The position numbers and the translations under genes were made by a program. A stretch of 64,000 nucleotides of DNA from Limosilactobacillus fermentum (GTDB lineage: Bacteria; Bacillota; Bacilli; Lactobacillales; Lactobacillaceae). The stretch covers positions 397,950 to 461,949 of the forward strand of contig NZ_CP040910.1 in assembly GCF_013394085.1 (NCBI RefSeq), read 5' to 3'. How positions within the stretch are numbered: the first letter of the stretch is position 1; each line of letters opens with the position of its first letter. The notes beneath the pieces were generated by a model, which saw nothing but the letters and a program-made list of their open reading frames with translations, did not search any database and was not told the DNA's origin. Below, piece after piece: positions 2,144-30,484 of this stretch.

Positions 2144-4372
2144 ATGGACTACAGGGATTTTTACCAACCAGAAAATTACGTGAACCGGGAACTATCCTGG
2201 ATTGACTTTAATGGGCGGGTGTTAGAAGAAGCCGCCAGCCCAACCAACCCCCTGTTGGAACGGGCCAATTTTTTGGGGATTACCCAAAGTAACGTCGATG
2301 AATTCTTCATGGTGCGGGTGGCTTCTTTGAGTAAGTTAGCCGCCGCTGGGGTAACGACAACGGACGCCTCCGGGATGACCCCGGCAGCACAACTGACGGC
2401 GGTCAACGAAAAGGAGCACCAGATGGTGGCCCGGCGCTACCAGGTGTATAAGGACGTCTTACTTCCGGCCTTGGAAGCTAAAGACATCCACCTGGTAGCC
2501 GTTAAGGACTTGGATCAACACCAACACGACTACTTGCAGCGTTACTTTAACGATGAATTATTACCGGTCCTAACCCCGATGGCCGACGACTCATCGCGGC
2601 CCTTCCCCTTTATCTCTAATAACTCCTTAAACGTGGCCGTTAAGCTGATTCGTACGGCTCCGGCAACGACCGCTAAGGAAGTGCTCGAGGGCGATCAGGA
2701 AGTGGTGACCACCATTTCCCAGCCCCACGAAAAAAAGGAACAAGACGGTAAGTACGAAGAGGAATTCGCCACCGTCCGGGTTCCCGAGGTCTATAAGCGG
2801 TTGGTTAAGATGCCGTCATCCAACATCTTTGTCCTCTTAGACGACGTGATCAAGACCTTTATCAGCGTCCTCTTCCCGGGCTACGCCGTGCAAGCAACTG
2901 GTACTTACCGGGTCGTGCGGGACATGGACCTGGACGTGGCCGAAGAAGACACCTCCGACTTGTTGCGGGCGGTTCAGCACCAGTTGCGGGAACGCGAGCA
3001 CGGTCACGTTATTCGCCTAGAAGTGGAGCAGGGGATGGACGATTGGCTGGCGGCCCACCTGATTGATAACCTTAAGGTCGGCGAAGAAGGGGTTTACCGC
3101 ATTGCGGGCCCGATTGACTTAACCTTTTTAAAGAAGCTCTCCGGCATGGTTTCCGACCACGAAGAAGACCGCTACAGCAAGTTTACCCCGTACCTAGCCC
3201 CGGAATTGGATATGGAACACAACTTATTTGACGCCATTCGGGAAAAGGATCACCTGATGCAACACCCCTACGATGATTTCCAAGCCGTCGTTAACTTTAT
3301 TCACCAGGCGGCCACCGACCCCAAGACCCTAGCGATCAAGATGACCCTCTACCGGGTATCCGGAAATTCTCCAATCATCAAGTACTTGGGGATGGCAGCC
3401 CAGCAGGGCAAACAGGTAACGGTGCTGGTGGAAGTTAAGGCCCGGTTCGATGAACAAAACAACGTTCACTGGGCTCGTCGGCTAGAGCGGATGGGTTGCC
3501 ACGTAATTTACGGGTTAGTGGGGCTCAAGACCCACTGTAAGCTCGCCTTGGTCATTCGCCGCGATGAAGACGGAATTCGCCGCTACATGCACCTGGGAAC
3601 CGGGAATTACAATGACGTGACCGCCAACTTCTACACCGATATGGGGTTGTTTACCTGTGATTACGAACTCGGGGTCGACTTAACCAACCTCTTTAACATG
3701 CTGTCCGGTTTCGCCCGGCCACGGTACTTCCACAAGTTGCGGGTTTCACCGGGTGGGATTCGCAACTTCATTAACGAAAAGATCGATGAACAAATTGAGG
3801 TGGCCAACAAGGGACTGCCGGCCAAGATCCGGATGAAAATGAATTCCCTGTCGGATAAACAAATTATCGCCCACCTATACGCTGCTGCTGCGGCCGGGGT
3901 GAAGGTGGAGCTATTGATCCGGGGGATTACGTGCCTGAGAAACGATTTACCGTTCTTACACGGTAACATCACGGTCCACTCAATTGTCGGGCGCTTTTTG
4001 GAACACTCGCGGATTTACTACTTTGAGGCCAACGGGCACTCGGAGATCTACTTAGCCTCGGCCGACATGATGACCAGAAACCTTAACCGGCGGGTTGAAG
4101 AGCTCTTCCCGGTCACCCAAGAAGATACCAAGGCACGGGCGATCGAAATTTTTGATACAATGTGGCAAGACGACGTCAAGACCCGGGTTCTAAAGGGCGA
4201 CCGGTACACCCCGCTGCCGTTCAGCGGTCAGGTCGATTGCCAAGAGATCTTCGTTGATCAGGTTAAACAACAAGAACGAGGGCAGCGCCAAGAACAAAAG
4301 AACCGGCGCCACTTAAACAACGTCTTTGAAACCCTTAGTCGTCACGTCAATAACCTACGCCTCAAGAAGTAA
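2144..4372 (+). CDS. ppk: Polyphosphate kinase PPK1
   Basis: This 742-residue protein has normal PPK1 length. It reversibly transfers the ATP gamma-phosphate to polyphosphate. Visible hallmarks are the N-terminal YVNRELSWIDFNGRVLEEA motif, the LVGLKTHCKLAL segment whose His corresponds to the autophosphorylated residue, and HLGTGNYND. It lies between two Ppx/GppA-family genes, so synthesis and breakdown of polyphosphate are co-transcribed. The left breakpoint of the 14.1-kb duplication lies inside codons 29-31 (2228-2234); this is the only copy that keeps the native N-terminus. Confidence 0.93.
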   Translation: MDYRDFYQPENYVNRELSWIDFNGRVLEEAASPTNPLLERANFLGITQSNVDEFFMVRVASLSKLAAAGVTTTDASGMTPAAQLTAVNEKEHQMVARRYQVYKDVLLPALEAKDIHLVAVKDLDQHQHDYLQRYFNDELLPVLTPMADDSSRPFPFISNNSLNVAVKLIRTAPATTAKEVLEGDQEVVTTISQPHEKKEQDGKYEEEFATVRVPEVYKRLVKMPSSNIFVLLDDVIKTFISVLFPGYAVQATGTYRVVRDMDLDVAEEDTSDLLRAVQHQLREREHGHVIRLEVEQGMDDWLAAHLIDNLKVGEEGVYRIAGPIDLTFLKKLSGMVSDHEEDRYSKFTPYLAPELDMEHNLFDAIREKDHLMQHPYDDFQAVVNFIHQAATDPKTLAIKMTLYRVSGNSPIIKYLGMAAQQGKQVTVLVEVKARFDEQNNVHWARRLERMGCHVIYGLVGLKTHCKLALVIRRDEDGIRRYMHLGTGNYNDVTANFYTDMGLFTCDYELGVDLTNLFNMLSGFARPRYFHKLRVSPGGIRNFINEKIDEQIEVANKGLPAKIRMKMNSLSDKQIIAHLYAAAAAGVKVELLIRGITCLRNDLPFLHGNITVHSIVGRFLEHSRIYYFEANGHSEIYLASADMMTRNLNRRVEELFPVTQEDTKARAIEIFDTMWQDDVKTRVLKGDRYTPLPFSGQVDCQEIFVDQVKQQERGQRQEQKNRRHLNNVFETLSRHVNNLRLKK

Positions 4373-4385
4373 AAGGGGGAGGAAA

Positions 4386-5339
4386 ATGTCAACCAACTTA
4401 AAGGTGATTGATTTGGGATCTAACTCGGTGCGTCTGCGGATCACCAAAATTTTAGATGATGGCCAAACGGAACTACTGCGCTACGAAAAAGAGTACGTGC
4501 GCCTGTCAGAAAACATGGGTCCGGAGCGGACGCTAAAAGAGGAGCCTATGGCCAGGACCCTGAAGGCTTTAAAGGACTTTAAGGAGATTTACGACCAGTT
4601 TGACGGTGAGATCATCGCCGTGGCCACCGCCGCCGTTCGCCAAGCTACCAACCAACGGGACTTTCTGGAGCGCGTTGAACAAGAGGTGGGCCTGACGATT
4701 CAAGTGATCTCCGGCAAACGGGAGGCCTACCTTGATTACCTAGGGGTTTCCCGGACCCTACCACTGGAAAACGGGATCATCATTGATACCGGTGGGGCCT
4801 CAATGGAACTAATCTTAGTTGACCAGGGCCAGGCCGAGGAGACGGTTTCCTTGCCGATCGGTTCGGTCCTGTTGTCCCAACGTTACCACCTTGGCGACCA
4901 AGTAAGCGCCGCCAACCTGTACGACGCCGTAATCAAAGTCGATGAGGTTCTCTCTAGTCAACGCTGGTTGAGTCGGGCCCGCCACACCCGGGTGGTGGCC
5001 CTTGGGGGCTCTAACCGGGCCTTAGCTAAGATGTACCGGTGGCGCCTATCGGACGGGGAGGACGTTCCCTTGCCGGTCCACGGGTTAACCATGCAGACGG
5101 TTGACGCCTACGAAATGATGGACGACCTGCTGCGGATGGACCGGGAGCAGCGGGGCAAGGTACGGGGGGTATCGACGGCCCGGGCCGACGTGATTATCGG
5201 GGGACTGTTGCCGATCATGGCCCTCTTGCGCCAGTTAAATATGAAGCAAGTGATGTTTTCTAGCAACGGGCTACGGGAGGGGCTCTTGTTTGAATACATT
5301 GACCAAAAGTTTGGGGGTTTTCGTACCGACCAGGCTTAA
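4386..5339 (+). CDS. ppx: Exopolyphosphatase, short Ppx/GppA type (unit 1)
   Basis: Predicted to release phosphate from polyphosphate ends or hydrolyse pppGpp; the family does either. The ATG at 4386 follows a strong GGGGGAGG site. At 317 residues it holds only the actin-fold catalytic part, without the C-terminal HD region of long Ppx. Phosphate-binding loops are visible in DLGSNSVRLRI near the N-terminus and DTGGASMELILV near residue 135. It is 13 nt downstream of ppk, in the same operon. Exopolyphosphatase and guanosine pentaphosphatase activity cannot be told apart by sequence. Confidence 0.85.
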   Translation: MSTNLKVIDLGSNSVRLRITKILDDGQTELLRYEKEYVRLSENMGPERTLKEEPMARTLKALKDFKEIYDQFDGEIIAVATAAVRQATNQRDFLERVEQEVGLTIQVISGKREAYLDYLGVSRTLPLENGIIIDTGGASMELILVDQGQAEETVSLPIGSVLLSQRYHLGDQVSAANLYDAVIKVDEVLSSQRWLSRARHTRVVALGGSNRALAKMYRWRLSDGEDVPLPVHGLTMQTVDAYEMMDDLLRMDREQRGKVRGVSTARADVIIGGLLPIMALLRQLNMKQVMFSSNGLREGLLFEYIDQKFGGFRTDQA

Positions 5340-5347
5340 TTAAAGAT

Positions 5348-5361
5348 TGAAAGCGCTTTTT
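5348..5361 (+). promoter_or_regulatory. Possible cre (CcpA) site before galE (unit 1)
   Basis: TGAAAGCGCTTTTT matches 12 of 14 positions of the catabolite-responsive consensus TGWAANCGNTNWCA. It lies about 15 nt upstream of a TACAAT -10-like hexamer at 5376. CcpA control of galE is an inference. The same site is at 19453-19466 in unit 2. Confidence 0.45.
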
Positions 5362-5428
5362 ATCGACGAGTGTGGTACAATCTGGTTGTAGTAAAAGTTT
5401 TAGTAAAAATCGAAAGGATGGTAACAGC

Positions 5429-6424
5429 ATGGCAATCTTAGTCGCTGGTGGGGCGGGATACATTGGTTCCCACATGGTAAAGGACTTACTCGCAAACGGG
5501 GAGGAGGTTGTGGTTGCCGATAACCTCTCAACCGGTCACCGCAAGGCTGTGGACCCGCGGGCCAAGTTCTACATTGGTGACATTCGCGACCGGGCCTTTT
5601 TAGACCAAATTTTCATTAACGAAGACATCAAGGCGGTGGTCCACTTTGCCGCCTTCTCCATCGTGCCGGAATCAATGAGTGAACCCCTCAAGTACTTTGA
5701 TAACAATACGGGGGGCATGATCACCCTGCTCGAGGCAATGCGCGACTTTAAGGTTAAATACATTGTCTTCTCCTCAACGGCGGCCACTTACGGGGTGCCG
5801 GAACACATGCCGATTAAGGAAACCGATCCGCAAAAGCCGATCAACCCATACGGTCTGTCCAAGCTAATGATGGAACACATGATGGCCTGGGCCGATTCGG
5901 CTTACGGGGTTAAGTTTGTCGCCCTGCGTTACTTCAACGTGGCCGGGGCAGCGCCGGATGGTTCGATTGGTGAAGACCACGGCCCAGAAACCCACCTGGT
6001 TCCTATCATCATGCAAGTCGCCCAGGGCAAGCGCGCTGAACTGTCCATCTTTGGTGATGATTACAACACCCCGGATGGTACCAACGTCCGTGACTACGTT
6101 CACGTAATGGATCTGGCTGACGCCCACCTCCTAGCACTTAAGTACCTCTTTGCCGGGAATGAATCCAACGCCTTTAACCTCGGTTCTTCGACCGGCTTTT
6201 CCAACAAGCAAATGCTAGAAGCGGCCCGGGAAGTCACTGGCAAACCAATCCCGGCTAAGATGGCCCCACGCCGCCCGGGAGATCCGGATTCGTTAGTGGC
6301 CGCCTCTGACAAGGCCCGCAACGTCTTAGGTTGGAAGCCCAAGTACGATGACGTTCACGACATCATTGCCACCGCTTGGAAGTGGCACGAAAGCCACCCC
6401 CAAGGCTACAACGATCGTAACTAA
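5429..6424 (+). CDS. galE: UDP-glucose 4-epimerase (unit 1)
   Basis: Interconverts UDP-galactose and UDP-glucose in the Leloir pathway and supplies sugars for cell-surface polymers. The 331-residue protein has the usual length for the extended short-chain dehydrogenase family. The N-terminal Rossmann loop GGAGYIGSH, an SSTAATYG serine segment and the YGLSK catalytic Tyr-x3-Lys are all visible. The ATG at 5429 follows GAAAGGATG. It has its own promoter region with a possible cre site and ends before a long hairpin, so it appears monocistronic. Confidence 0.92.
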
Positions 6425-6454
6425 ATAAAGGGACCACTGCAGTCCTGAAACCAA

Positions 6455-6492
6455 AGAGGCAAGGAGAAAACCGTGTTTTCTCCTTGCCTCTT
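6455..6492 (+). terminator. Terminator-like hairpin after galE (unit 1)
   Basis: AGAGGCAAGGAGAAAAC pairs with GTTTTCTCCTTGCCTCT around a 3-nt loop. A short T-rich tract follows, without a long U run. Similar hairpins precede the left flank of the intergenic repeat elsewhere. The second copy is at 20560-20597. Confidence 0.6.
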
Positions 6493-6502
6493 GCCGTATA
6501 TT

Positions 6503-6631
6503 CGAATGTTCAACGGAAAACGTGGGAAATAGCCGCAGGCCTAGTTTCTAAGCAGGCCGAAGAACGGTGCGTGCCGCACCAAACCGTTCGTCCGATCTTA
6601 CATACGACCTGCATCGAAGGTTATTTCCCAC
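6503..6631 (+). repeat. Structured intergenic repeat, copy E1 (unit 1)
   Basis: Begins with the conserved flank CGAATGTT. GTGGGAAATAGCC (6522-6534) is nearly the inverse of GGTTATTTCCCAC (6619-6631). Inside, GCAGG can pair with CCTGC and AACGGTGC with GCACCAAACCGTT, so the whole can fold as a long branched hairpin. No coding potential is evident. Confidence 0.7.
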
Positions 6632-6644
6632 TTTCCTCCTACGC

Positions 6645-7493
6645 TTAGTCAACTTCCTGGTCGCGGGCGGATTCTTGGAGCAAACCGTCGAAGAAGCGTT
6701 GGATTGACACCTGGCCCCGCCGGACGTCTTGGTGGTGGAGGTGCTGGATCTCCACGTGGATATTTTGGTACTCAAAGAGGTTGTTGGCGTACTCGAGTAG
6801 GATATCATTTTCCGGGTAGTCGATGCACATGGTGGCCAGGTTGGTGATCCCCACCCGCAGGGCCCGCCGGATTCGTTGGTAGGCGATCTTTTTTTCGTGG
6901 TCATCAGCGTGGAAGTCGCGCTGGAAATCAATGGAAGAAAAGCTGGCCTTTTGATCGATCATCACCCGGATGATCTTACGGATATCCTCACTCCCCGTCT
7001 CGGAGGCAATCCCTAAGAAGCGCAGGACGGTGTCCACGTGATCCATTTGGCGGCGTTGGGCAGCCTGGGGTCGGTTATACGGGGCGATTGAAGAGGAGGA
7101 AATTTCGTAAATCCGGTTGACCTGGTTGAGTAAGCGGACGTGGGTGGCGACCTGGCGAATGATGTGGCGCGCTTCGGTGTGGTTGAGAGGGTGAGAAAGG
7201 TAAAAGTCACAGCCAGCCCGGTAGGCGGCCTCCTTGGCGGTGGGGGTCGGTGGCCCCACCATGATGAAGTGGGGGTGGTTGTTGACTTGTTGGAGGCGGT
7301 AGATTAGCTCAACCCCGTCCATCCCGTGAGGTGGTAGGGGAGGATCATGATGTCGACCCGTAGTTGGAGGAGTTCTCGTAGGCCCGGTTGGGATCGGCGG
7401 TTAAGCCGACCAGGGTGTTGTAAAGTCGTTTTCAATTAGGTCACGGAGAAGGGCACTAGTGGCCTGGTCGTCTTGAAGAAGGTAGAAGTTCAC
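6645..7493 (-). pseudogene. Response-regulator-like gene, frameshifted copy (unit 1)
   Basis: Same gene as 20750-21601, but with three 1-bp losses and a substitution between about 7331 and 7422. From the GTG at 7493 translation keeps the first 24 residues, then meets a stop about six codons later. The longest remaining open stretch (6645-7322) lacks the first 58 residues. The C-terminal 225 residues are identical to the intact copy. The lesions are single-base and partly in short homopolymers, so sequencing error is a realistic alternative to true decay. Confidence 0.75.
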
Positions 7494-7570
7494 GGGTTAG
7501 CTCCTTTCGCACGGTGGTTGAAGGTGATTGAAGGGGTGCGCCCCTTTTTTAACGTTAGAATAAAAGCGGT

Positions 7571-7589
7571 TACTATTTAATGAATAGTA
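7571..7589. promoter_or_regulatory. Palindromic operator candidate (unit 1)
   Basis: TACTATT-TAATG-AATAGTA has perfect 7-bp arms with a 5-nt spacer and lies in the regulator-argF divergent gap. It could bind the neighbouring regulator or an ArgR/Crp-type factor; which one is not known. An identical copy is at 21680-21698. Confidence 0.4.
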
Positions 7590-7922
7590 CTTTTTATGAC
7601 TTTTAGCAATAGATTGTACTAAATTAATTGATTTAATGGCGTAATTAAGGTGATGACAACTATACTAGGGGGAGGTTAGGGGGCGCCGCTCGTTGGACCA
7701 TTTTTGAATCAAGCTGAAGTAGTGCGAAGTTTTTGAAACCCGATTAAGTTGTTTTTTTGCTCACCAAAAGGGAATAGGGGGGGTAAAAAACGCCCGTCCG
7801 TTGAAATATAAACATCCAATATACAAAGACTTGAGTTTCCATTCACAACCACAGAGGTGGAAAAGAAAATCGTTCGGATTGGTGATGATTCCGGGCGCTT
7901 TGCGATGGTCCTTGAAAGCTCT

Positions 7923-7931
7923 TGCTATACT
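7923..7931 (+). promoter_or_regulatory. Extended -10 promoter of the arginine deiminase operon (unit 1)
   Basis: TGCTATACT is a TGn-extended -10 sequence located 45 nt before the argF ATG. No good -35 is present, which fits an activator-dependent promoter. An overlapping TGAAAGCTCTTGCT is only a weak cre match. The unit 2 equivalent is 22036-22044. Confidence 0.5.
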
Positions 7932-7976
7932 AAAAATTGTAAAGAGAACACTGATAGATTAAAGGAGGGCCCGAAA

Positions 7977-8977
7977 ATGGCTTTTAACTTACGTAACCGC
8001 AGTTTCTTAACTTTGGCTGACTTAACACTCGTGAAATGGAATACATGCTCGACCTCGCTGAGGATTTGAAGAAGGCTAAGTACGCCGGGACGGAACAACA
8101 ACACTTAAAGGGTAAGAACATCGCTTTAATCTTTGAAAAGAGCTCCACGCGGACCCGTTGCTCCTTTGAAGTGGGGGCTAAGGATCAAGGGGCGCACGTT
8201 ACCTACCTCGGCCCATCTGGTTCCCACATCGGCCACAAGGAATCCGTTAAGGACACCGCACGGGTACTCGGGGGGATGTTCGACGGGATCGAATACCGTG
8301 GTTTCTCCCAACGTAACGTTGAAATTTTGGCCGATACTCCCGGGGTACCGGTTTGGAACGGGTTAACTGACGAAGACCACCCCACTCAAGTCTTGGCTGA
8401 CTTCTTGACCGCTCACGAAGTACTGAAGAAGCCATACCAACAAATCAAGTTTGCCTTTGTTGGTGACGGCCGCGACAATGTTTCCAACGCCCTGATGTTA
8501 GGGGCGGCCGTAATGGGGATGGAATACCACGTGGTCACGCCAAAGGAACTTGAACCAGAAGCCGAAACCTTGGCAAAGGCTAACGAAATCGCCGCTAAGA
8601 CCGGGGCTAAGATTGTCGTAACTAACGACGTTAAGGCCGGGGTTAAGGGCATGGACGTAATCTACGCCGACGTATGGGTTTCCATGGGTGAATCCGACGA
8701 CATGTGGGCAAAGCGGATTGAACTGCTTAAGCCGTACCAAGTTACCAAGGAAGTCATGGAAGCAACCGAAAACCCGAAGGCGATCTTCGAACACTGCTTA
8801 CCTGCCTTCCACAACACGGAAACGGAAGTCGGCAAGGAAATCGCTGAAAAGTTTGGCCTGACGGAAATGGAAGTTACCGACGAAGTCTTTGAAAGTGAAC
8901 AATCGGTGGTCTTCCGTGAAGCCGAAAACCGGATGCACACGATCAAGGCCGTAATGGTAGCAACCTTAGGGGACTAA
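7977..8977 (+). pseudogene. argF: Ornithine carbamoyltransferase, frameshifted copy (unit 1)
   Basis: Catabolic ornithine carbamoyltransferase of the arginine deiminase pathway. From the ATG at 7977, with an AAAGGAGG ribosome site, a missing T near 8024 shifts the frame after about 15 residues and translation stops at 8069. An internal ATG at 8036 could restart a product lacking the first 20 residues, but it has no clear ribosome site. A further pair of compensating indels changes EYSG to DTPG around 8335, in a conserved region. The SSTRTR and HCLP motifs are retained. Real inactivation and base-calling error are both possible. Confidence 0.75.
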
Positions 8978-8992
8978 AGAGGAGGAACTGGC

Positions 8993-9922
8993 ATGGCAAA
9001 AGTCGTCGTTGCTTTAGGGGGGAATGCCTTGGGTAAATCCCCCGAAGAACAACTGAAGTTAGTTAAAAATACCGCTTCCTCGTTAATTGGACTGATCCAA
9101 GCCGGTAACCAGGTGGTGATCAGCCACGGGAACGGGCCGCAAGTTGGTCAAATTAACCTCGGGATGGATTTTGCCGCTCAAAACGGGAAGACCGCGGCGT
9201 TTCCGTTCCCAGAGTGTGGGGCGATGAGCCAGGGCTACATTGGTTATCACCTGCAACAAAGTTTGCAAAATGAACTCCACCAGCGGGGAATGGAAAAAGA
9301 CGTTGTGACGACGGTTACCCAAGTGGTAGTGGACCCTAGTGACCCGGCCTTTGAAAACCCAACTAAGCCAGTCGGTGACTTCTACACCAAGGAACAAGCC
9401 GCCCAGATCGAACAAGAGAAGGGCTACACCTTTGTCGAAGACGCTGGTCGTGGTTACCGTCAGGTAGTGCCATCCCCGCTACCAAAGCGGATCGTGGAGT
9501 TAAACAGCATTGAAACCTTAATTGAAAACGGGACCTTGGTCATTGCCGCTGGTGGTGGCGGGGTGCCGGTGGTCGAAGAAGGCGGCGCCCTGACCGGAGT
9601 GCCGGCCGTCATCGATAAGGACCGCTCTAGTGCCCTCTTGGCGGATAACGTTGACGCCGACCAGCTGATCATTTTAACGGCGGTTGACTACGTTTACATC
9701 AACTACAACCAGCCGGACGAACAGAAGCTGACCGAATTAAGTCAAGCACAGGCCCAGGAACTGATCGATGCCGGTCAATTCCCGGCTGGTTCAATGCTAC
9801 CAAAGATCCAAGCTTGCCTGTCCTTTGTGAAGGGCCACCCAGAACGCAAGGCGATCATCACCTCACTCGCCGGCTTAGACCAGGCCCTAGAAGGCAAGTT
9901 AGGAACGGTGATTCACGGTTAA
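8993..9922 (+). CDS. arcC: Carbamate kinase (unit 1)
   Basis: Makes ATP from carbamoyl phosphate and ADP, the energy-yielding last step of arginine deiminase catabolism. The 309-residue protein has standard length. It starts with the [16 protein letters not shown] phosphate-binding segment and contains [10 protein letters not shown] and [13 protein letters not shown], typical of the amino-acid kinase fold. A GAGGAGG site precedes the ATG. It lies 15 nt after argF in the same operon. Confidence 0.94.
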
Positions 9923-9982
9923 TCACCACCCGCTTAATAAAAGAAGCTGGAAACGAAGACTAGATAAGGAGTGCGAGAAACA

Positions 9983-11206
9983 ATGACAAGTCCAATTCAA
10001 GTGACCTCCGAAATTGGAAAGCTCAAGACGGTGATGCTTCACCGGCCGGGACGTGAAATTGAAAACATTACGCCCGACTACATGGAGCGCCTCCTCTTTG
10101 ATGACATTCCGTACTTACCAATTGCCCAAGAAGAACACGACTTTTTTGCCCAAACCTTACGGGACCAGGGGATTGAAGTGCTGTACTTTGAAAAGTTAGC
10201 CGCTGAAGCATTGGCAAGTGACGACGTCAGAAAGGAATTTTTAAACCGGATGATCGCCGAATCTGGTTACGTTGCGGGTACCACCCACGACGCCTTATAT
10301 GACTACCTCTACCAAATGACCCCGCAGGAAATGGTTGACAAGATCATCGAAGGGGTGCGGGGGACTGACATTGACATCGCCCAACCGGATCTGCAATCCG
10401 TTTCCGAAAATACGGACTGGCCGTTCTTAATGGACCCAATGCCAAACGCTTACTTCACGCGGGATCCGCAGGCCTCCATTGGTGACGGGATCTCCATTAA
10501 CAAGATGACTTTCCCGGCCCGTCAACGTGAATCCCTGATCACGGAATACATCATCAACCACCACCCACGGTTTGCGGGGCAAGTTGAGGTATGGCGCGAC
10601 CGGAACCACGAATCCCACATCGAAGGGGGCGACGAGCTCGTCTTGTCCGACCACGTCTTAGCAATTGGGGTTTCCCAACGGACGACGGCGGACGCCATCG
10701 AAGACATCGCTAGAAACCTCTTTAAGGATTCTAACTACGACACCGTGATTGCCATTTCGATCCCACATAACCACGCTATGATGCACTTGGACACGGTCTT
10801 CACGATGATCAACCACGATCAGTTTACCGTTCACCCGGCGATCCTAGATGACAAGGGTGAGGTTGACAACTGGGTCTTGCACCCGGGCAAGGATGGTGAA
10901 ATTACCATCGAGCACCATACTGACATTAAGGCGGTCCTCAAGCAGGCCTTAAACAAGCCGGAAATTGACCTGATTCCAACCGGGAATGGTGACCCAATCG
11001 TGGCCCCACGGGAACAATGGAACGACGGCTCCAACACGTTAGCGATTGCACCGGGTGAAGTGGTAACTTACAACCGTAACTACGTTTCAAACGCCCTGCT
11101 TAAAGAACACGGGATCTTAGTTCACGAGGTTCGCTCCAGTGAACTATCCCGGGGTCGGGGTGGCCCACGGTGCATGTCTTGCCCAATCGTACGTGAGGAC
11201 CTCTAA
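9983..11206 (+). CDS. arcA: Arginine deiminase (unit 1, intact)
   Basis: Hydrolyses arginine to citrulline and ammonia, the first pathway step and a main acid-resistance reaction. The 407-residue protein is full length. It shows [16 protein letters not shown], the [10 protein letters not shown] loop and the C-terminal [10 protein letters not shown] containing the catalytic cysteine (Cys397). I chose ATG 9983, which follows AAGGAG by about 11 nt, over the in-frame GTG at 9971. Codons around 10387 read DLQ where unit 2 reads NRK. Confidence 0.94.
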
Positions 11207-11240
11207 GATAACGAAAATTAGTAACGCATTGAACCAAAGA

Positions 11241-11295
11241 AGGTGGAGGTGAGTAGTGGTCAGTTCAATACCACGGGCTCACTTGCACCTTTTTT
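11241..11295 (+). terminator. Hairpin with T run between arcA and arcD (unit 1)
   Basis: AGGTG and CACCT close a long imperfect stem that also pairs GTGGT with ACCAC, followed by TTTTTT. It would lower or condition read-through from arcA into arcD. Unit 2 copy: 25356-25410. Confidence 0.65.
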
Positions 11296-11326
11296 GCGGG
11301 TTGAGGAAAAAAGGAGGAAAATCAAG

Positions 11327-12745: not shown

Positions 12746-12752
12746 AAAAGAG

Positions 12753-20559: not shown

Positions 20560-20597
20560 AGAGGCAAGGAGAAAACCGTGTTTTCTCCTTGCCTCTT
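20560..20597 (+). terminator. Terminator-like hairpin after galE (unit 2)
   Basis: Same 17-bp stem as at 6455-6492. Confidence 0.6.
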
Positions 20598-20607
20598 GCC
20601 GTATATT

Positions 20608-20736
20608 CGAATGTTCAACGGAAAACGTGGGAAATAGCCGCAGGCCTAGTTTCTAAGCAGGCCGAAGAACGGTGCGTGCCGCACCAAACCGTTCGTCCGA
20701 TCTTACATACGACCTGCATCGAAGGTTATTTCCCAC
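20608..20736 (+). repeat. Structured intergenic repeat, copy E1 (unit 2)
   Basis: Same element as 6503-6631, with GTGGGAAATAGCC at 20627 and GGTTATTTCCCAC ending at 20736. Confidence 0.7.
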
Positions 20737-20749
20737 TTTCCTCCTACGC

Positions 20750-21601
20750 TTAGTCAACTTCCTGGTCGCGGGCGGATTCTTGGAGCAAACCGTCGAAGAA
20801 GCGTTGGATTGACACCTGGCCCCGCCGGACGTCTTGGTGGTGGAGGTGCTGGATCTCCACGTGGATATTTTGGTACTCAAAGAGGTTGTTGGCGTACTCG
20901 AGTAGGATATCATTTTCCGGGTAGTCGATGCACATGGTGGCCAGGTTGGTGATCCCCACCCGCAGGGCCCGCCGGATTCGTTGGTAGGCGATCTTTTTTT
21001 CGTGGTCATCAGCGTGGAAGTCGCGCTGGAAATCAATGGAAGAAAAGCTGGCCTTTTGATCGATCATCACCCGGATGATCTTACGGATATCCTCACTCCC
21101 CGTCTCGGAGGCAATCCCTAAGAAGCGCAGGACGGTGTCCACGTGATCCATTTGGCGGCGTTGGGCAGCCTGGGGTCGGTTATACGGGGCGATTGAAGAG
21201 GAGGAAATTTCGTAAATCCGGTTGACCTGGTTGAGTAAGCGGACGTGGGTGGCGACCTGGCGAATGATGTGGCGCGCTTCGGTGTGGTTGAGAGGGTGAG
21301 AAAGGTAAAAGTCACAGCCAGCCCGGTAGGCGGCCTCCTTGGCGGTGGGGGTCGGTGGCCCCACCATGATGAAGTGGGGGTGGTTGTTGACTTGTTGGAG
21401 GCGGTAGATTAGCTCAACCCCGTCCATCCCGTGAGGTTGGTAGGGGAGGATCATGATGTCGACCCGTAGTTGGAGGAGTTCTTCGTAGGCCCGGTTGGGA
21501 TCGGCGGTTAAGCCGACCAGGGTGTTGTCGAAGTCGTTTTCAATTAGGTCACGGAGAAGGGCACTAGTGGCCTGGTCGTCTTGAAGAAGGTAGAAGTTCA
21601 C
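20750..21601 (-). CDS. Response-regulator-like protein with degenerate receiver and YcbB/GlnL-like C-terminus
   Basis: Intact 283-residue copy; GTG start at 21601 preceded by AAAGGAG. Residues 1-115 look like a CheY-type receiver (acidic Asp8-Asp9, PHGMDG near 55-61). The site where the phosphoacceptor Asp is expected is Pro53, in VDIMILPYQPHGMDG, and the conserved Lys is His102 in LSHPLN. Residues from about 150 resemble the YcbB/GlnL output domain. It is divergent from the arginine deiminase operon, which makes it a candidate phosphorylation-independent regulator of it. No sensor kinase gene lies beside it. Confidence 0.7.
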   Translation of the reverse strand: MNFYLLQDDQATSALLRDLIENDFDNTLVGLTADPNRAYEELLQLRVDIMILPYQPHGMDGVELIYRLQQVNNHPHFIMVGPPTPTAKEAAYRAGCDFYLSHPLNHTEARHIIRQVATHVRLLNQVNRIYEISSSSIAPYNRPQAAQRRQMDHVDTVLRFLGIASETGSEDIRKIIRVMIDQKASFSSIDFQRDFHADDHEKKIAYQRIRRALRVGITNLATMCIDYPENDILLEYANNLFEYQNIHVEIQHLHHQDVRRGQVSIQRFFDGLLQESARDQEVD

Positions 21602-21679
21602 GGGTTAGCTCCTTTCGCACGGTGGTTGAAGGTGATTGAAGGGGTGCGCCCCTTTTTTTAACGTTAGAATAAAAGCGGT

Positions 21680-21698
21680 TACTATTTAATGAATAGTA
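21680..21698. promoter_or_regulatory. Palindromic operator candidate (unit 2)
   Basis: TACTATT-TAATG-AATAGTA, identical to 7571-7589. Confidence 0.4.
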
Positions 21699-22035
21699 CT
21701 TTTTATGACTTTTAGCAATAGATTGTACTAAATTAATTGATTTAATGGCGTAATTAAGGTGATGACAACTATACTAGGGGGAGGTTAGGGGGCGCCGCTC
21801 GTTGGACCATTTTTGAATCAAGCTGAAGTAGTGCGAAGTTTTTTGAAACCCGATTAAGTTGTTTTTTTGCTCACCAAAAGGGAATAGGAGGTGGGTAAAA
21901 AACGCCCGTCCGTTGAATATAAACATCCAATATACAAAGACTTGAGTTTCCATTCACAACCACAGAGGTGGAAAAAGAAAATCGTTCGGATTTGGTGATG
22001 ATTCCGGGCGCTTTGCGATGGTCCTTGAAAGCTCT

Positions 22036-22044
22036 TGCTATACT
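22036..22044 (+). promoter_or_regulatory. Extended -10 promoter of the arginine deiminase operon (unit 2)
   Basis: TGCTATACT, 45 nt before the argF ATG; no convincing -35. Confidence 0.5.
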
Positions 22045-22089
22045 AAAAATTGTAAAGAGAACACTGATAGATTAAAGGAGGGCCCGAAA

Positions 22090-23091
22090 ATGGCTTTTAA
22101 CTTACGTAACCGCAGTTTCTTAACTTTGGCTGACTTTAACACTCGTGAAATGGAATACATGCTCGACCTCGCTGAGGATTTGAAGAAGGCTAAGTACGCC
22201 GGGACGGAACAACAACACTTAAAGGGTAAGAACATCGCTTTAATCTTTGAAAAGAGCTCCACGCGGACCCGTTGCTCCTTTGAAGTGGGGGCTAAGGATC
22301 AAGGGGCGCACGTTACCTACCTCGGCCCATCTGGTTCCCACATCGGCCACAAGGAATCCGTTAAGGACACCGCACGGGTACTCGGGGGGATGTTCGACGG
22401 GATCGAATACCGTGGTTTCTCCCAACGTAACGTTGAAATTTTGGCCGAATACTCCGGGGTACCGGTTTGGAACGGGTTAACTGACGAAGACCACCCCACT
22501 CAAGTCTTGGCTGACTTCTTGACCGCTCACGAAGTACTGAAGAAGCCATACCAACAAATCAAGTTTGCCTTTGTTGGTGACGGCCGCGACAATGTTTCCA
22601 ACGCCCTGATGTTAGGGGCGGCCGTAATGGGGATGGAATACCACGTGGTCACGCCAAAGGAACTTGAACCAGAAGCCGAAACCTTGGCAAAGGCTAACGA
22701 AATCGCCGCTAAGACCGGGGCTAAGATTGTCGTAACTAACGACGTTAAGGCCGGGGTTAAGGGCATGGACGTAATCTACGCCGACGTATGGGTTTCCATG
22801 GGTGAATCCGACGACATGTGGGCAAAGCGGATTGAACTGCTTAAGCCGTACCAAGTTACCAAGGAAGTCATGGAAGCAACCGAAAACCCGAAGGCGATCT
22901 TCGAACACTGCTTACCTGCCTTCCACAACACGGAAACGGAAGTCGGCAAGGAAATCGCTGAAAAGTTTGGCCTGACGGAAATGGAAGTTACCGACGAAGT
23001 CTTTGAAAGTGAACAATCGGTGGTCTTCCGTGAAGCCGAAAACCGGATGCACACGATCAAGGCCGTAATGGTAGCAACCTTAGGGGACTAA
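22090..23091 (+). CDS. argF: Ornithine carbamoyltransferase, catabolic (unit 2, intact)
   Basis: Splits citrulline with phosphate into ornithine and carbamoyl phosphate in the deiminase pathway; often named arcB. The intact 333-residue protein has the carbamoyl-phosphate motif SSTRTR at residues 56-61, [17 protein letters not shown] around 120-136 and HCLP at 273-276. ATG 22090 follows AAAGGAGGGCCC. It is the first gene of the operon, followed 15 nt later by arcC. This is the only undamaged argF in the window. Confidence 0.94.
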
Positions 23092-23106
23092 AGAGGAGGA
23101 ACTGGC

Positions 23107-24036
23107 ATGGCAAAAGTCGTCGTTGCTTTAGGGGGGAATGCCTTGGGTAAATCCCCCGAAGAACAACTGAAGTTAGTTAAAAATACCGCTTCCTCGTTAA
23201 TTGGACTGATCCAAGCCGGTAACCAGGTGGTGATCAGCCACGGGAACGGGCCGCAAGTTGGTCAAATTAACCTCGGGATGGATTTTGCCGCTCAAAACGG
23301 GAAGACCGCGGCGTTTCCGTTCCCAGAGTGTGGGGCGATGAGCCAGGGCTACATTGGTTATCACCTGCAACAAAGTTTGCAAAATGAACTCCACCAGCGG
23401 GGAATGGAAAAAGACGTTGTGACGACGGTTACCCAAGTGGTAGTGGACCCTAGTGACCCGGCCTTTGAAAACCCAACTAAGCCAGTCGGTGACTTCTACA
23501 CCAAGGAACAAGCCGCCCAGATCGAACAAGAGAAGGGCTACACCTTTGTCGAAGACGCTGGTCGTGGTTACCGTCAGGTAGTGCCATCCCCGCTACCAAA
23601 GCGGATCGTGGAGTTAAACAGCATTGAAACCTTAATTGAAAACGGGACCTTGGTCATTGCCGCTGGTGGTGGCGGGGTGCCGGTGGTCGAAGAAGGCGGC
23701 GCCCTGACCGGAGTGCCGGCCGTCATCGATAAGGACCGCTCTAGTGCCCTCTTGGCGGATAACGTTGACGCCGACCAGCTGATCATTTTAACGGCGGTTG
23801 ACTACGTTTACATCAACTACAACCAGCCGGACGAACAGAAGCTGACCGAATTAAGTCAAGCACAGGCCCAGGAACTGATCGATGCCGGTCAATTCCCGGC
23901 TGGTTCAATGCTACCAAAGATCCAAGCTTGCCTGTCCTTTGTGAAGGGCCACCCAGAACGCAAGGCGATCATCACCTCACTCGCCGGCTTAGACCAGGCC
24001 CTAGAAGGCAAGTTAGGAACGGTGATTCACGGTTAA
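23107..24036 (+). CDS. arcC: Carbamate kinase (unit 2)
   Basis: Identical 309-residue protein to 8993-9922, with the same GAGGAGG ribosome site and spacing. Confidence 0.94.
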
Positions 24037-24096
24037 TCACCACCCGCTTAATAAAAGAAGCTGGAAACGAAGACTAGATAAGGAGTGCGAGAAACA

Positions 24097-25321
24097 ATGA
24101 CAAGTCCAATTCAAGTGACCTCCGAAATTGGAAAGCTCAAGACGGTGATGCTTCACCGGCCGGGACGTGAAATTGAAAACATTACGCCCGACTACATGGA
24201 GCGCCTCCTCTTTGATGACATTCCGTACTTACCAATTGCCCAAGAAGAACACGACTTTTTTGCCCAAACCTTACGGGACCAGGGGATTGAAGTGCTGTAC
24301 TTTGAAAAGTTAGCCGCTGAAGCATTGGCAAGTGACGACGTCAGAAAGGAATTTTTAAACCGGATGATCGCCGAATCTGGTTACGTTGCGGGTACCACCC
24401 ACGACGCCTTATATGACTACCTCTACCAAATGACCCCGCAGGAAATGGTTGACAAGATCATCGAAGGGGTGCGGGGGACTGACATTGACATCGCCCAACC
24501 CAACCGGAAATCCGTTTCCGAAAATACGGACTGGCCGTTCTTAATGGACCCAATGCCAAACGCTTACTTCACGCGGGATCCGCAGGCCTCCATTGGTGAC
24601 GGGATCTCCATTAACAAGATGACTTTCCCGGCCCGTCAACGTGAATCCCTGATCACGGAATACATCATCAACCACCACCCACGGTTTGCGGGGCAAGTTG
24701 AGGTATGGCGCGACCGGAACCACGAATCCCACATCGAAGGGGGCGACGAGCTCGTCTTGTCCGACCACGTCTTAGCAATTGGGGTTTCCCAACGGACGAC
24801 GGCGGACGCCATCGAAGACATCGCTAGAAACCTCTTTAAGGATTCTAACTACGACACCGTGATTGCCATTTCGATCCCACATAACCACGCTATGATGCAC
24901 TTGGACACGGTCTTCACGATGATCAACCACGATCAGTTTACCGTTCACCCGGCGATCCTAGATGACAAGGGTGAGGTTGACAACTGGGTCTTGCACCCGG
25001 GCAAGGATGGTGAAATTACCATCGAGCACCATACTGACATTAAGGCGGTCCTCAAGCAGGCCTTAAACAAGCCGGAAATTGACCTGATTCCAACCGGGGA
25101 ATGGTGACCCAATCGTGGCCCCACGGGAACAATGGAACGACGGCTCCAACACGTTAGCGATTGCACCGGGTGAAGTGGTAACTTACAACCGTAACTACGT
25201 TTCAAACGCCCTGCTTAAAGAACACGGGATCTTAGTTCACGAGGTTCGCTCCAGTGAACTATCCCGGGGTCGGGGTGGCCCACGGTGCATGTCTTGCCCA
25301 ATCGTACGTGAGGACCTCTAA
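24097..25321 (+). pseudogene. arcA: Arginine deiminase, frameshifted copy (unit 2)
   Basis: One extra G near 25098 (CCGGGGAATGG against CCGGGAATGG) shifts the frame. The product ends at 25107 after about 336 residues, and the C-terminal 68-codon fragment with the catalytic-Cys segment RCMSCP is left out of frame (25115-25321). The loss of the catalytic Cys predicts an inactive enzyme. An in-frame change of DLQ to NRK lies near 24501. A homopolymer sequencing error would look the same. Confidence 0.8.
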
Positions 25322-25355
25322 GATAACGAAAATTAGTAACGCATTGAACCAAAGA

Positions 25356-25410
25356 AGGTGGAGGTGAGTAGTGGTCAGTTCAATACCACGGGCTCACTTG
25401 CACCTTTTTT
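25356..25410 (+). terminator. Hairpin with T run between arcA and arcD (unit 2)
   Basis: Same hairpin as 11241-11295. Confidence 0.65.
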
Positions 25411-25441
25411 GCGGGTTGAGGAAAAAAGGAGGAAAATCAAG

Positions 25442-26828
25442 ATGGAAAACAAAAACGGAATTGGGCGCATTGGTCTGATTGCCCTGATCGTCAGTTCCTG
25501 TATTGGGACGGGGATCTTTGGGATCACCAATGCGGTGGCCGCCGCGGCGGCACCTGGGCCCGCTCTACTAGCATGGCTCTTCGTCGGTTTTGGCTTTTTG
25601 ATGCTCGTTTTTGCGCTTAACAACCTATCGGAAAAACGGCCGAACCTGGAAGCGGGTATCTTCTCATATGCCGGCGCCGGCTTTGGGCCGATGGGGGAAT
25701 TTATTTCCGGTTGGGCCTACTGGTTGTCAGCTTGGTTGGGTAACATTGCCTTTGCCACCATGCTGATGAGTGCCTTGGGGACCTTTTTCCCGGTCTTTAG
25801 CAACGGGCAGAACCTAATGTCGATCATCGTGGCCATTATCTTCTGTTGGGTTTTGACCCTCCTCGTTAACAGCGGGGTGGAAACGGCGACCTTTATTAAC
25901 ACGATTGGGACCTTCTTTAAGATCATTCCACTGGTATTATTCATCATTATTTCGATTATCTTCTTTAAGGCCGGTATGTTTACGACCGACTTCTGGGGCC
26001 ACGTCGCTAACAACCTTTCCAAGGGGACGGAAACGGGCTCGGTATACACCCAGATGAAGGGGACCCTGCTGACACTGATCTGGGTCTTCATTGGGGTTGA
26101 AGGGGCCTCCGTCATGGGTCACCGGGCCAAGGACCGGACCCAAGCCCAACAAGCGACGATCATCGGGTTCATCCTCTTGTTGATCATTTACGTGATGATT
26201 TCGATTATTCCTTACGGGACCCTGACCCGGGCCCAACTGGCCGCCGCTAGTCAACCAGCCCTGGGGGGCCACGATTATCAACGTCGGCTTAATTGTTTCG
26301 GTAATTATTTCCTGGCTTTCCTGGACGATGCTGCCAGCCGAAACGACGATGCTAGTTGCCGAAGACAAGGCAATGCCAAAGGTGTGGGGTAAACTCAACG
26401 CTAAGAAGGCCCCAACGGCCTCGCTGATGATCACCGGGGTTTTGCAAACGATCTTCCTGTTCTCCTTACTCTTCACTGAACAAGCCTACAACTTTGCTTA
26501 CTCACTGGCCTCCGCCGCCATCCTCTTCTCCTACCTTTTTGTGGGGCTGTACCAAATGAAGTACAGTCAAGAACACCAAGAGTGGGGACAGTGGACGATT
26601 GGACTCTTGTTGGTTCTCTTCCAAATTGCCTGCATGTTCTTGGCCGGTTGGCAACAAGTGCTCCTGGTTTCGATTAGCTTTATTCCGGGCTTTATCATCT
26701 ACTACCAAGGGGTACGTGAAAATAACCGGACGATGAGCGGGGGCGAAAAGGGAACGATGGTTGTAGTCTTAGCCTTTAGTTTAATTGCCATCTTCCTGAT
26801 CTTTAACGGAACGATTGCCGTTGGGTAG
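25442..26828 (+). pseudogene. arcD: Arginine/ornithine antiporter, deletion copy (unit 2)
   Basis: Lacks 32 bp relative to unit 1, removed between two CCTGGGG direct repeats (12145-12151 and 12177-12183 in unit 1; a single CCTGGGG at 26260-26266 here). The frame shifts after about residue 278 and ends at 26392. The last 166 codons remain open at 26328-26828 in the original frame. A transporter cut mid-membrane is expected to be inactive. Confidence 0.85.
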
Positions 26829-26835
26829 AAAAGAG

Positions 26836-26891
26836 GTGGCAAACAACTTGCTCGGCCGTACTTAGGCGCTAGGTCTGCGGTTGTTAACCAC
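26836..26891 (-). repeat. Structured intergenic repeat, short inverted copy E2 (unit 2)
   Basis: Same as 12753-12808. Confidence 0.55.
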
Positions 26892-26918
26892 GTTAGCGAT
26901 GTAGCGTTTAGAAAACAT

Positions 26919-26957
26919 AAAAGCCACCCGTTACCGATTAGGTAGCAGGTGGCTTTT
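26919..26957. terminator. Bidirectional terminator between arcD and metE-like gene (unit 2)
   Basis: Same stem as 12836-12874. Confidence 0.8.
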
Positions 26958-26978
26958 GTGTTCAGGGGGTGACACGCG

Positions 26979-28100
26979 TTAGCCCCAAACCGCGTCCGCA
27001 ATCTCCTTAATGAGCTTAAGCTTGGCCCATTGTTGCTCTTCGGTTAAGATATTGCCTTCTTCCGTGGAGGCAAACCCGCACTGGGGACTTAAGGCTAGGT
27101 TAGCTAGTGGCACTTCTTTAGCGGCTTCGTGGATCCGGGCGATGACTTGGTCGGGGTCTTCTAGTTGACCGTCCTTAGAGGTGATTAGCCCCAAGACGAT
27201 GGTGACCTGGTCGCGCTGATTGAGGATCTTCTTGAGCGGGGCAAAGTTACCGTCGCGTTCTTCGCTGTCGTATTCCAAGAAGAAGCCGTCGTAATTGAGC
27301 TGGGCTAAGTAAGGGGCCACCGGGGCGTACCCACCGGAAAAGAGGAAGGTGGACTTGAAGTTCCCCCGGCAAATGTGGGTGGTAATTGTTAGGTCGGCCG
27401 GCTTGTCTTTTAAGGCTCCGTTAATTACGGTGACGGCGTCTTGGCACAGTTGGACGTACTTTTGGTGTTCTCCAGGTTGGTCCTTAGTTTCGTTGAGCTT
27501 ACTGATTAAAAAGGCCCAGGTGGTGTCGTCAATTTGCAGGTAACGGCAGCCGAGTTCGTAAAAGCGGTGGATCGTTTGTCGATAGGCCGTTGCCAGGTCA
27601 GTTAAGTAGTCTTGGTAGCGGTCGTAAAAGTCCGGCCAGTGGTCGGAACGGTTATCCCGGAAGAGCATCGTTGGTGACGGGATCGTTTGCTTAGCTAAGA
27701 CGTCCGGGCCGGCCTGCTGGTTGGTAAATTGGAAGTGCTTGAAGAAGGGGTGGTCAGGGTTGTAGGCCACCTTGCCGACCAGTTCGGCGTTGTCGGTACG
27801 GGTTTTGGCACCCTTAAACCGGTAGCTTTGGTGGTAGTTGTAGTGACCAACCCCGGTCAGCCCCCACAAGAAGTCCAGGTGCCACCAGCTCCGCCGAAAT
27901 TCACCATCGGTCACGGCGTGCAGGCCGACCGCCTTTTCCTTTTCAATTAAATCGGTGATACAGGCGTCTTCCACGGCGGTTAAACCGGCTTGATCCAGTT
28001 CGCCCTGCTTGAATTGCTCCCGGGCTTCCTTGAGCTTTTGGGGACGCAAAAAGGAGCCGACGATGTCATTTTTAAAGGGCGCGGTTAAAGTTGTGGTCAT
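26979..28100 (-). CDS. MetE C-terminal-like methyltransferase, YxjG/YxjH type (unit 2)
   Basis: Identical 373-residue protein to 12896-14017, again behind a complete T-box leader. Confidence 0.85.
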   Translation of the reverse strand: MTTTLTAPFKNDIVGSFLRPQKLKEAREQFKQGELDQAGLTAVEDACITDLIEKEKAVGLHAVTDGEFRRSWWHLDFLWGLTGVGHYNYHQSYRFKGAKTRTDNAELVGKVAYNPDHPFFKHFQFTNQQAGPDVLAKQTIPSPTMLFRDNRSDHWPDFYDRYQDYLTDLATAYRQTIHRFYELGCRYLQIDDTTWAFLISKLNETKDQPGEHQKYVQLCQDAVTVINGALKDKPADLTITTHICRGNFKSTFLFSGGYAPVAPYLAQLNYDGFFLEYDSEERDGNFAPLKKILNQRDQVTIVLGLITSKDGQLEDPDQVIARIHEAAKEVPLANLALSPQCGFASTEEGNILTEEQQWAKLKLIKEIADAVWG

Positions 28101-28146
28101 AATTAAACATCCTTTCTATCTGAACAATGGTGTGGGAACTAAAAAA

Positions 28147-28437
28147 CGTCCCTAGAAAAGACCATTGTCTTCTCTAGGGACGCATTCAAGTTATCTTAAA
28201 AGCGTGTTACCACCCTAATTCGGTTCTCCCTCACGGCAAAACCCTCACGAGGTACGTCCAAACGGAGATACCCGGGGTGATAACGGGCCCAACCGCCACC
28301 AGTTAATGAATTCACTGGTCGAACTTGCTCCCAGACCATCTTCACTAGTTAGCCACCCCGTGGTTCTCAGCTCCCCCACTTCTCTGGGTGGGGGCCAACT
28401 AGTTACTCATCTGTTCTCAGCAACTTATCATTTAATT
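28147..28437 (-). ncRNA. T-box riboswitch, probably methionine-specific (unit 2)
   Basis: Same leader as 14064-14354: T-box core at 28202-28225 and terminator stem at 28147-28182. Confidence 0.85.
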
Positions 28438-28443
28438 TTCATC

Positions 28444-28472
28444 ATTCTAAGCCAGGGGGTGGTAAAATGCAA
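28444..28472 (-). promoter_or_regulatory. Promoter of the T-box leader (unit 2)
   Basis: TTGCAT-17-TAGAAT on the minus strand, as at 14361-14389. Confidence 0.7.
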
Positions 28473-28563
28473 GTACTAAATTTAATCCGGGCGCCCCTTG
28501 TTAAACCCGGTGAAGGCGCGCTAAGATTAAATGAAAATGGTTTTAATAGAAAGGGTGGGACAG

Positions 28564-29682
28564 ATGGTTGAATTAGCACCGTTTGGCGTCGAAGCTTGGT
28601 TAAATAAATGGGAAAAAAAGGCCCGCTACGATATTTCACAAAGCACAATTGCCTCCTTATCGATGGCGGACCTACGGGAGTTGGACGATGATCCCAATAC
28701 CCTAGACAAATTACTCTTTGACGCTAAGCTTAATTACGGTTTGATTGAAGGTTCACCAGCCTTTAAAGAGGCGGTAGCGCAACTGTACGAGCACGTCGAC
28801 CCCGACCAGGTTCTGCAAACTAACGGGGCCACTGGTGCTAACCTAGCCGTCCTCTACGCACTGGTTGAGCCCGGAGATCAAGTGATTGCGGAGTACCCTT
28901 CTTACCAACAGTTATTTGACATTCCACGCTCGCTAGGAGCGACGGTTGATTACTGGCGCCTACGCGAAGAGGAAGGGTGGCAGCCGCGGTTGGCTGAGTT
29001 AGCTAACTTGGTCACCGAAAAAACCAAGCTCATTTGCTTAAATAACGCTAATAACCCCACTGGTACGGTACTAGACAGGGAGACGTTAAGTCGGGTAGCT
29101 GAGATTGCCCGTGAAGTAGGGGCTTACGTTTTGGTTGACGAGGTTTACCACCCACTAATGAAAAACGGGACGGCTTGTTCGATCGTCGACCTCTACGAAC
29201 GGGGGATTGCGACCGATTCCCTGTCAAAGACCTACTCGGTACCGGGACTACGGATTGGCTGGACGGTGACGAACCGGGAAGTGGCCGACCGTTTGCGAAG
29301 CGTCCGGGACTACACCATGATTTGTGGTGGGGTGGTCAACGACCTGTTAGCCACCTACGTCTTAAACCACCGTCACCAGGTTTTGGCGCGCAACCGGGCG
29401 TTGGTGGAACAAAACTGGGCCCTGTATCAAGACTGGCTGGCCAAGGAGCCGCTGGTTTCCCTAGTGGCCCCGGCCGGGGTCTCAACCTCCTTTCCCCGCC
29501 TGTTAATTGAAGAAGACACGGTTAGTTTTTGTACCCGGTTACTGGAACAAACGGGCGTCTTGTTGGTTCCCGGGGAGGCTTTCGAAACGCCCCACCACGT
29601 TCGTTTAGGCTACTGCGCTCCCCAACCGGTTTTAAAGGAAGGGTTACGCCGGTTAAGCACCTTTTTACACGCCCAAAACTAA
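28564..29682 (+). CDS. arcT: ArcT-like PLP-dependent aminotransferase (unit 2)
   Basis: Identical 372-residue protein to 14481-15599, followed after 70 nt by intact tsaB. Confidence 0.75.
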   Translation: MVELAPFGVEAWLNKWEKKARYDISQSTIASLSMADLRELDDDPNTLDKLLFDAKLNYGLIEGSPAFKEAVAQLYEHVDPDQVLQTNGATGANLAVLYALVEPGDQVIAEYPSYQQLFDIPRSLGATVDYWRLREEEGWQPRLAELANLVTEKTKLICLNNANNPTGTVLDRETLSRVAEIAREVGAYVLVDEVYHPLMKNGTACSIVDLYERGIATDSLSKTYSVPGLRIGWTVTNREVADRLRSVRDYTMICGGVVNDLLATYVLNHRHQVLARNRALVEQNWALYQDWLAKEPLVSLVAPAGVSTSFPRLLIEEDTVSFCTRLLEQTGVLLVPGEAFETPHHVRLGYCAPQPVLKEGLRRLSTFLHAQN

Positions 29683-29752
29683 GGCGAATAGGATGGACAA
29701 TTGCTGGTGGGGCGAGTATCGTGGGTATGTTAGAAAAAAGTAGAAGGGATCG

Positions 29753-30484
29753 ATGGAATTGAAAATTTTGGCGATTGACACCTCGAATCACCCGATGAGT
29801 ATTGCCCTGGTGGAAGACGACCGCCTCATGGCCCAAACGACCCTGAACATGGTCCGCAACCACAGCGTTTACGTTTTGCCGACCATTGAACGGTTAATGG
29901 ATGATTTGGGCTGGACACCAGCGGATTTGAACCGGGTGGTGGTGGCAAACGGTCCGGGTTCGTACACCGGGATCCGGATTGCCACCACGACGGCCAAGGT
30001 TTTGGCCACGACGCTGGGGATCGACTTGGTGGCTGAATCAAGCCTGAAGGTCTTGGCGACCAACGTTCTTCCCGATGACAAGCGCTTGATCGTCCCCTTT
30101 TTCGACGCCCGGCGTGGCAACGTCTTTGCCGGTGGGTACCAGTACCAAGCGGGAAAGTTAGTGGCGGTGATGGAAGATCAGCACTGCGCCTTTAGCGACT
30201 TAATGGTTAGGGTGACCCAACAGCCACAGGGCGTTTTGTTAATTGGGCAAAGCACACCGAAACTGGCCGACGAGCTGGCCAAGTTGCCCACTAACGTAAC
30301 TTTAGCGCCTGCCGATTTAACCCTGCCGTCAACGTACCACCTGGCCCTGCTGGGAAGAACGGCCATCCCGGTCGCCGATCCGGATGCCCTGGTGCCAGAC
30401 TACCTACGACTCACCGAAGCCGAGGCCCAGTGGCAAAAGCAACATCCCGGTCAAACGGCCCAGGAGTACGTTCATGAAGTTTAA
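29753..30484 (+). CDS. tsaB: tRNA threonylcarbamoyladenosine protein TsaB (intact copy)
   Basis: Partner of TsaD in making t6A37 on ANN-decoding tRNAs. The 243-residue protein has normal length and begins LKILAIDTSNHPMSIALV, with ANGPGSYTGIR near residue 65. It is the only copy with its native C-terminus. Its stop overlaps the rimI start by 11 nt, and rimI overlaps tsaD, so the three form a tight t6A operon. The right end of the duplication lies inside codons 222-224. Confidence 0.92.
   Translation: MELKILAIDTSNHPMSIALVEDDRLMAQTTLNMVRNHSVYVLPTIERLMDDLGWTPADLNRVVVANGPGSYTGIRIATTTAKVLATTLGIDLVAESSLKVLATNVLPDDKRLIVPFFDARRGNVFAGGYQYQAGKLVAVMEDQHCAFSDLMVRVTQQPQGVLLIGQSTPKLADELAKLPTNVTLAPADLTLPSTYHLALLGRTAIPVADPDALVPDYLRLTEAEAQWQKQHPGQTAQEYVHEV

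Follow-up and report, generated by a model that had tools for sequence, protein, structure and literature searches.

Why does a finished genome of Limosilactobacillus fermentum carry one block of genes twice, head to tail? The block lies in the window analyzed here, the whole stretch of 64,000 nucleotides at contig positions 397950–461949 of NZ_CP040910.1 (assembly GCF_013394085.1; a single contig of 1,887,974 bp), and runs from within ppk, the polyphosphate kinase gene, to within tsaB. A first-pass annotation, made from the letters alone, had described a 14.1-kb direct tandem duplication that was either a recent amplification or an assembly error. Each alternative finds support, but for a different feature of the locus: very probably the minor discrepancies between the copies are errors, and the junction is better explained by a real duplication. 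With a rough probability of 0.65, judged from the sequence, the locus would reflect a recent 14.1-kb head-to-tail duplication in the sequenced culture of strain DSM 20052, joined at a 7-bp repeat, the small differences being errors. There is strong reason to equate the analyzed record with CP040910, the genome of L. fermentum DSM 20052, which according to the accessible text of PMC7191730 measures 1,887,974 bp and was assembled by Unicycler in hybrid mode from PacBio and Illumina data, with contigs joined by hand; minor assembly gaps are mentioned there as well.

Self-comparison of the window confirmed the tandem pair (Table 1), and the opening 5,105 bp of both copies are without any difference. 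Identity between copies on the scale of kilobases is not chance and needs no statistics. The heptamer GAAGCCG stands at the left end, the join and the right end, as the first-pass annotation had also seen, and the bases flanking it are unlike each other at the boundaries. The junction, at contig position 414,282, occurs once in the genome, in which a ppk query and a query over positions 6900–8600 of the window each found two matches. The join yields an in-frame TsaB-Ppk reading frame, while a whole ppk and a whole tsaB persist at the outer edges of the array, so that no gene is lost.

Table 1. The tandem block, its boundaries and the reading frames affected (positions in the window)
Feature	Position	Strand	Remark
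Copy 1 of tandem block, inside ppk to inside tsaB	2228..16332	+	14,105 bp
Copy 2 of tandem block	16333..30415	+	14,083 bp
GAAGCCG, left end, in ppk	2228..2234	+	
GAAGCCG, tsaB-to-ppk junction	16333..16339	+	
GAAGCCG, right end, in tsaB	30416..30422	+	
ppk (polyphosphate kinase), intact	2144..4372	+	family named via fusion frame
tsaB, intact	29753..30484	+	family named via fusion frame
In-frame TsaB-Ppk fusion reading frame	15670..18477	+	935 amino acids, made by the junction
Eleven differences between copies	7331..8335	+	break YcbB-type response-regulator gene and arcB of copy 1
Other three differences, including the 32-bp loss	24501..26259	+	break arcA and arcD of copy 2
arcA of copy 1, intact	9971..11206	+	
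arcB of copy 2, intact	22018..23091	+	

How could the two copies have become joined at this point? Short-homology tandem duplication is an event of a known kind. At the 7-bp match between ppk and tsaB, a strand would restart one unit back, or two sister strands would join, to give a tandem pair; the route could be slipped or template-switching replication, or a RecA-independent joining. Spontaneous tandem duplications in bacteria between short direct repeats are described in the accessible part of PMC3411829, with a deduced cut-off of at least 11 bp. The present block resembles those duplications in being joined head to tail at short direct homology. It is unlike them in that the homology is 7 bp rather than at least 11 bp, and in that its junction comes from a finished sequence alone, not from reads.

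A long repeat as the driver, whose absence the earlier reading had asserted, was not found at the block ends, although transposase genes were not searched for: when the 600-bp ends were compared, the longest same-strand match listed was 8 bp and the longest inverted one 10 bp. An untrimmed overlap between the ends of a circular contig was rejected as well. In its present rotation the record starts 59.8 kb before dnaA (contig 59,768–61,054), the junction lies away from the record ends and has 7-bp homology, and the first and last 12 kb do not overlap, sharing only a 43-bp inverted match of 88% identity. The junction 30-mer was unmatched in viral contigs and the junction region in plasmid records, results that carry little weight, since near records may be left out. 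No publication on this duplication was found, as judged from titles and the openings of abstracts.

Was the tsaB-to-ppk junction physically present in the sequenced culture? Quite probably it was. It is favored as real because of the 7-bp homology, because the assigned errors described below lie about 8 kb off, and because the record ends are elsewhere and without overlap. At random pairs of sites 13–15 kb apart, at least 7 shared bases are found with a frequency of only 6.0e-4. This bears directly on the rival explanation of a false duplication, in which the block is present once in the cell and the second copy comes from leftover contigs joined by hand, from a chimeric molecule, or from a mis-primed product of the polymerase chain reaction in primer walking. 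A blind join would share at least 7 bases just as rarely, but a 7-bp junction could also arise from a primer or strand end that matches 7 bases, and hand joining is part of the history of the record, going by the accessible text of PMC7191730.

The small differences between the copies tell a separate story. The first-pass annotation overlooked them. In the copy-to-copy alignment the copies differ at 14 places, all 14 of the indel type, with no isolated substitutions. Nine are lone single-base indels, one is a single-base indel with an adjacent mismatch and one a two-base indel with an adjacent mismatch; the remaining differences are two compensating pairs (one of 1 base, the other of 5 bases as we read it) and a 32-bp loss that sits between CCTGGGG repeats. 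Eleven of the 14 are packed into 1,005 bp, whereas in simulations of uniform placement this did not occur in any of 200,000 runs, the maximum being 9. As written, the differences disrupt arcB and the response-regulator gene of copy 1 and, in copy 2, arcA and arcD; every broken gene has an intact version in the opposite copy.

These 14 differences are very probably uncorrected consensus errors left in a repeat, and not the product of evolution. They are read in this way because they are of the indel type only and clustered, because a similar though not identical kind of cluster exists in a 23S ribosomal RNA (rRNA) gene of the same record, because a relative sides with one copy or the other according to place, and because the single-copy flank is nearly clean. 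If there is no true difference between the copies, the event must be very recent.

How would errors come to be confined to a repeat? Short reads would presumably align to the copy that is already correct, leaving long-read or patch errors in the other, a mechanism taken from the accessible text of PMC8812927, where short-read polishing of long-read-only assemblies is described to leave residual errors in repeats. The likeness lies in indel errors that are confined to repeats, with one copy right and the other wrong at each place. On the other hand, those assemblies were made from long reads only, unlike the present record, a hybrid of PacBio and Illumina reads built by Unicycler with hand joining. 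Unicycler bridges are filled with long-read consensus, according to the part of PMC5481147 consulted. A short-read polishing gap, a Unicycler bridge and a hand-made patch each fit as the source of the errors.

If the differences were instead genuine, the duplication would have been followed by reciprocal decay, with true frameshifts removing different arc genes from each copy and splitting the pathway between them. In the sequence as written, damage to arcB is indeed limited to copy 1, and damage to arcA and arcD to copy 2, and the 32-bp loss between CCTGGGG repeats resembles real slippage. However, 14 indel-type events against no isolated substitutions, together with their extreme clustering, speak against such decay; moreover, the changes affect runs no longer than two or three bases, the compensating pairs fall within 5–13 bases, and a similar cluster is found inside one 23S gene of the record. 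Reciprocal decay is therefore highly improbable. Equally improbable is a single event in which error-prone copying made both a real duplication and the clustered frameshifts, so that each array would lack different arc genes and only the two jointly would encode the full arginine deiminase pathway. The sequence as written, with no two complete gene sets, speaks against an adaptive amplification of the arc cluster, a test that is void if the differences are errors.

Are broken genes a general feature of the record? The flanks of the block were compared with the reading frames of G016, the nearest relative compared (80% DNA identity over ppk). Of its 51 reading frames, 46 have a listed match in the window, matches being listed only above 50% identity; 10 of these lie in the block and 36 outside. 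A first control, which took a match split over two frames as its criterion, detects only two of the four broken block genes (arcA and arcD), the response-regulator gene and arcB of copy 1 showing as one piece. In a second control, indels not divisible by three were counted in DNA alignments to the G016 frames. This count flags all four broken block genes, together with the two genes cut by the junction (the end of tsaB and the start of ppk). Outside the block it flags 2 of the 36 frames, in one of which all three indels precede the matched part, so that 35 of 36 have no frame-breaking indel in the matched part. As far as tested, genes are thus broken in the doubled sequence only, apart from one doubtful case in the flank, a short frame at 51749–52042, 63% identical to G016, with a 1-base indel near 51784 that may be real, alignment noise or an error.

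The 23S rRNA genes provide a second repeat within the same record. There are five of them; among four, the only differences are substitutions at 5 columns. The fifth (contig 223905–226828) has 13 indel columns and 6 mismatch columns that are private to it, all within alignment columns 1873–2480, and 2 earlier private substitutions. A cluster of indels in one copy of so conserved a gene is difficult to attribute to evolutionary change, and thus the record appears to keep an uncorrected stretch in another repeat. One rRNA locus contains 102 N, which are either gaps in the record or masked bases.

Which copy is right at each place? G016 has the block once, in the same gene order and without the methionine-synthase gene. 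By length, it matches copy 2 at 10 of the 11 places on the left and copy 1 at all 3 on the right, so that a side can be assigned at 13 of 14 places, position 7544 being counted as undecided. On the left, the nearest error assigned in this way is at 8335, 8.0 kb from the join, and on the right at 24501, 8.2 kb from it; the stretch 8336–24500, which includes the junction, is free of such errors. The nearest copy-to-copy differences, regardless of which copy is right, are 4.2 kb to the left (12145–12176) and 5.1 kb to the right (21437). When 50 genomes of the genus (49 besides this one, none of them another strain of the species) were searched with ppk, each gave one to three matching pieces, and no full second ppk was found among the matches listed.

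These comparisons bear on a false duplication from both sides. The single block in G016 speaks for it, as do the error-rich stretches 4–6 kb from the outer edges in both copies, a pattern suggestive of a clean piece patched in at each end. Against it, assigned errors are absent for about 8 kb to either side of the join, the copies agree throughout the nearest 4.1 kb, and the record's own ends lie elsewhere, without overlap. On this evidence we consider a false duplication the less likely reading but a serious rival, and a real duplication carrying consensus errors remains the preferred explanation.

The stretch free of assigned errors also permits a different view of a real junction, namely that it came from an excised 14.1-kb circle, or from a minority of the cells, and was written into the chromosome at finishing. 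The stretch exceeds one unit and would overlap itself by about 2 kb in unit coordinates, like a linearized circle. However, no replication origin for such a circle is in evidence, though no search for one was made, and a minority tandem array accounts for the same data. We give this explanation very little credence.

Several points weigh against a real duplication with consensus errors. The junction is known from the finished sequence alone, and that sequence was completed by hand joins, although the accessible text of PMC7191730 does not state that this locus in particular was joined by hand; a word search of that text returned no occurrence of "duplicat" or "tandem". The window contains more copies of GAAGCCG than shuffled sequences do (22 matches against a mean of 10.06), an excess that comes partly from the doubled block itself. 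In the accessible part of PMC3411829, duplication candidates with 7 bp and 9 bp of homology were unconfirmed by probe, single chimeric reads forming the background there. At position 7544, in an intergenic T run, the length in G016 agrees with copy 1; if copy 1 is right at this place, there is an error in copy 2 at 21653, at a distance of only 5.3 kb from the join. Assignment is weaker for six of the 11 left places (7544–7878), which lie between genes, where the alignment has about 75% identity. The cluster in the fifth 23S gene holds mismatches beside its indels, unlike the block.

What would the two outcomes mean? The record is in all likelihood the genome of the type strain of a species of food and probiotic interest, and the locus serves chiefly as a warning about a reference genome. 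Should the duplication be real, the stock that was sequenced has an extra dose of polyphosphate, galactose and arginine-pathway genes, together with a TsaB-Ppk fusion frame, and it may be unstable. Tandem repeats can be lost by RecA-dependent recombination, the same route by which they can expand. Expansion of a tandem repeat in this way is documented for Escherichia coli in the accessible text of PMC2656507. If the duplication is false, about 14 kb and several calls of broken genes are wrong in the reference genome. Either way, the arc genes of this record are unfit for gene counts or claims of pseudogenes before a check against the reads.

Which genes does the block hold? Family searches name the TsaB-Ppk fusion, Ppx/GppA, GalE, the YcbB-type response regulator, ArcB, ArcC and ArcA, along with a relative of the vitamin-B12-independent methionine synthase and an aminotransferase of the PRK07324 model. 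The antiporter falls short of the cut-off of the arginine-ornithine antiporter model and passes the one set for the basic amino acid/polyamine antiporter model; arcD and arcT are used here as labels drawn from gene position and from the first-pass annotation. The latter had listed galE, the arginine deiminase cluster, the metE-like gene and arcT as doubled, which is correct as a layout, but the arc cluster is not present as two intact sets, with arcB, arcA and arcD each broken in one copy.

Flanked by arcD and the aminotransferase gene, the methionine-synthase-like gene (12896–14017) is unmatched in the stretch of G016 that is collinear with the block; it would be either a gain in this genome or a loss in that relative. 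In the stretches compared, another relative, G041, has tsaB directly after galE (10193–12074 of the locus), with no arc genes between, so that within the genus the arginine deiminase cluster appears to be inserted variably at this site. The arginine deiminase family has a weak additional match elsewhere in the genome, at contig 1528048–1528428. In Limosilactobacillus caccae, two ornithine carbamoyltransferase matches stand about 9 kb apart (3–773 and 9878–10939), 84% and 87% identical to the ArcB of the window, the first of them truncated by the end of the locus compared.

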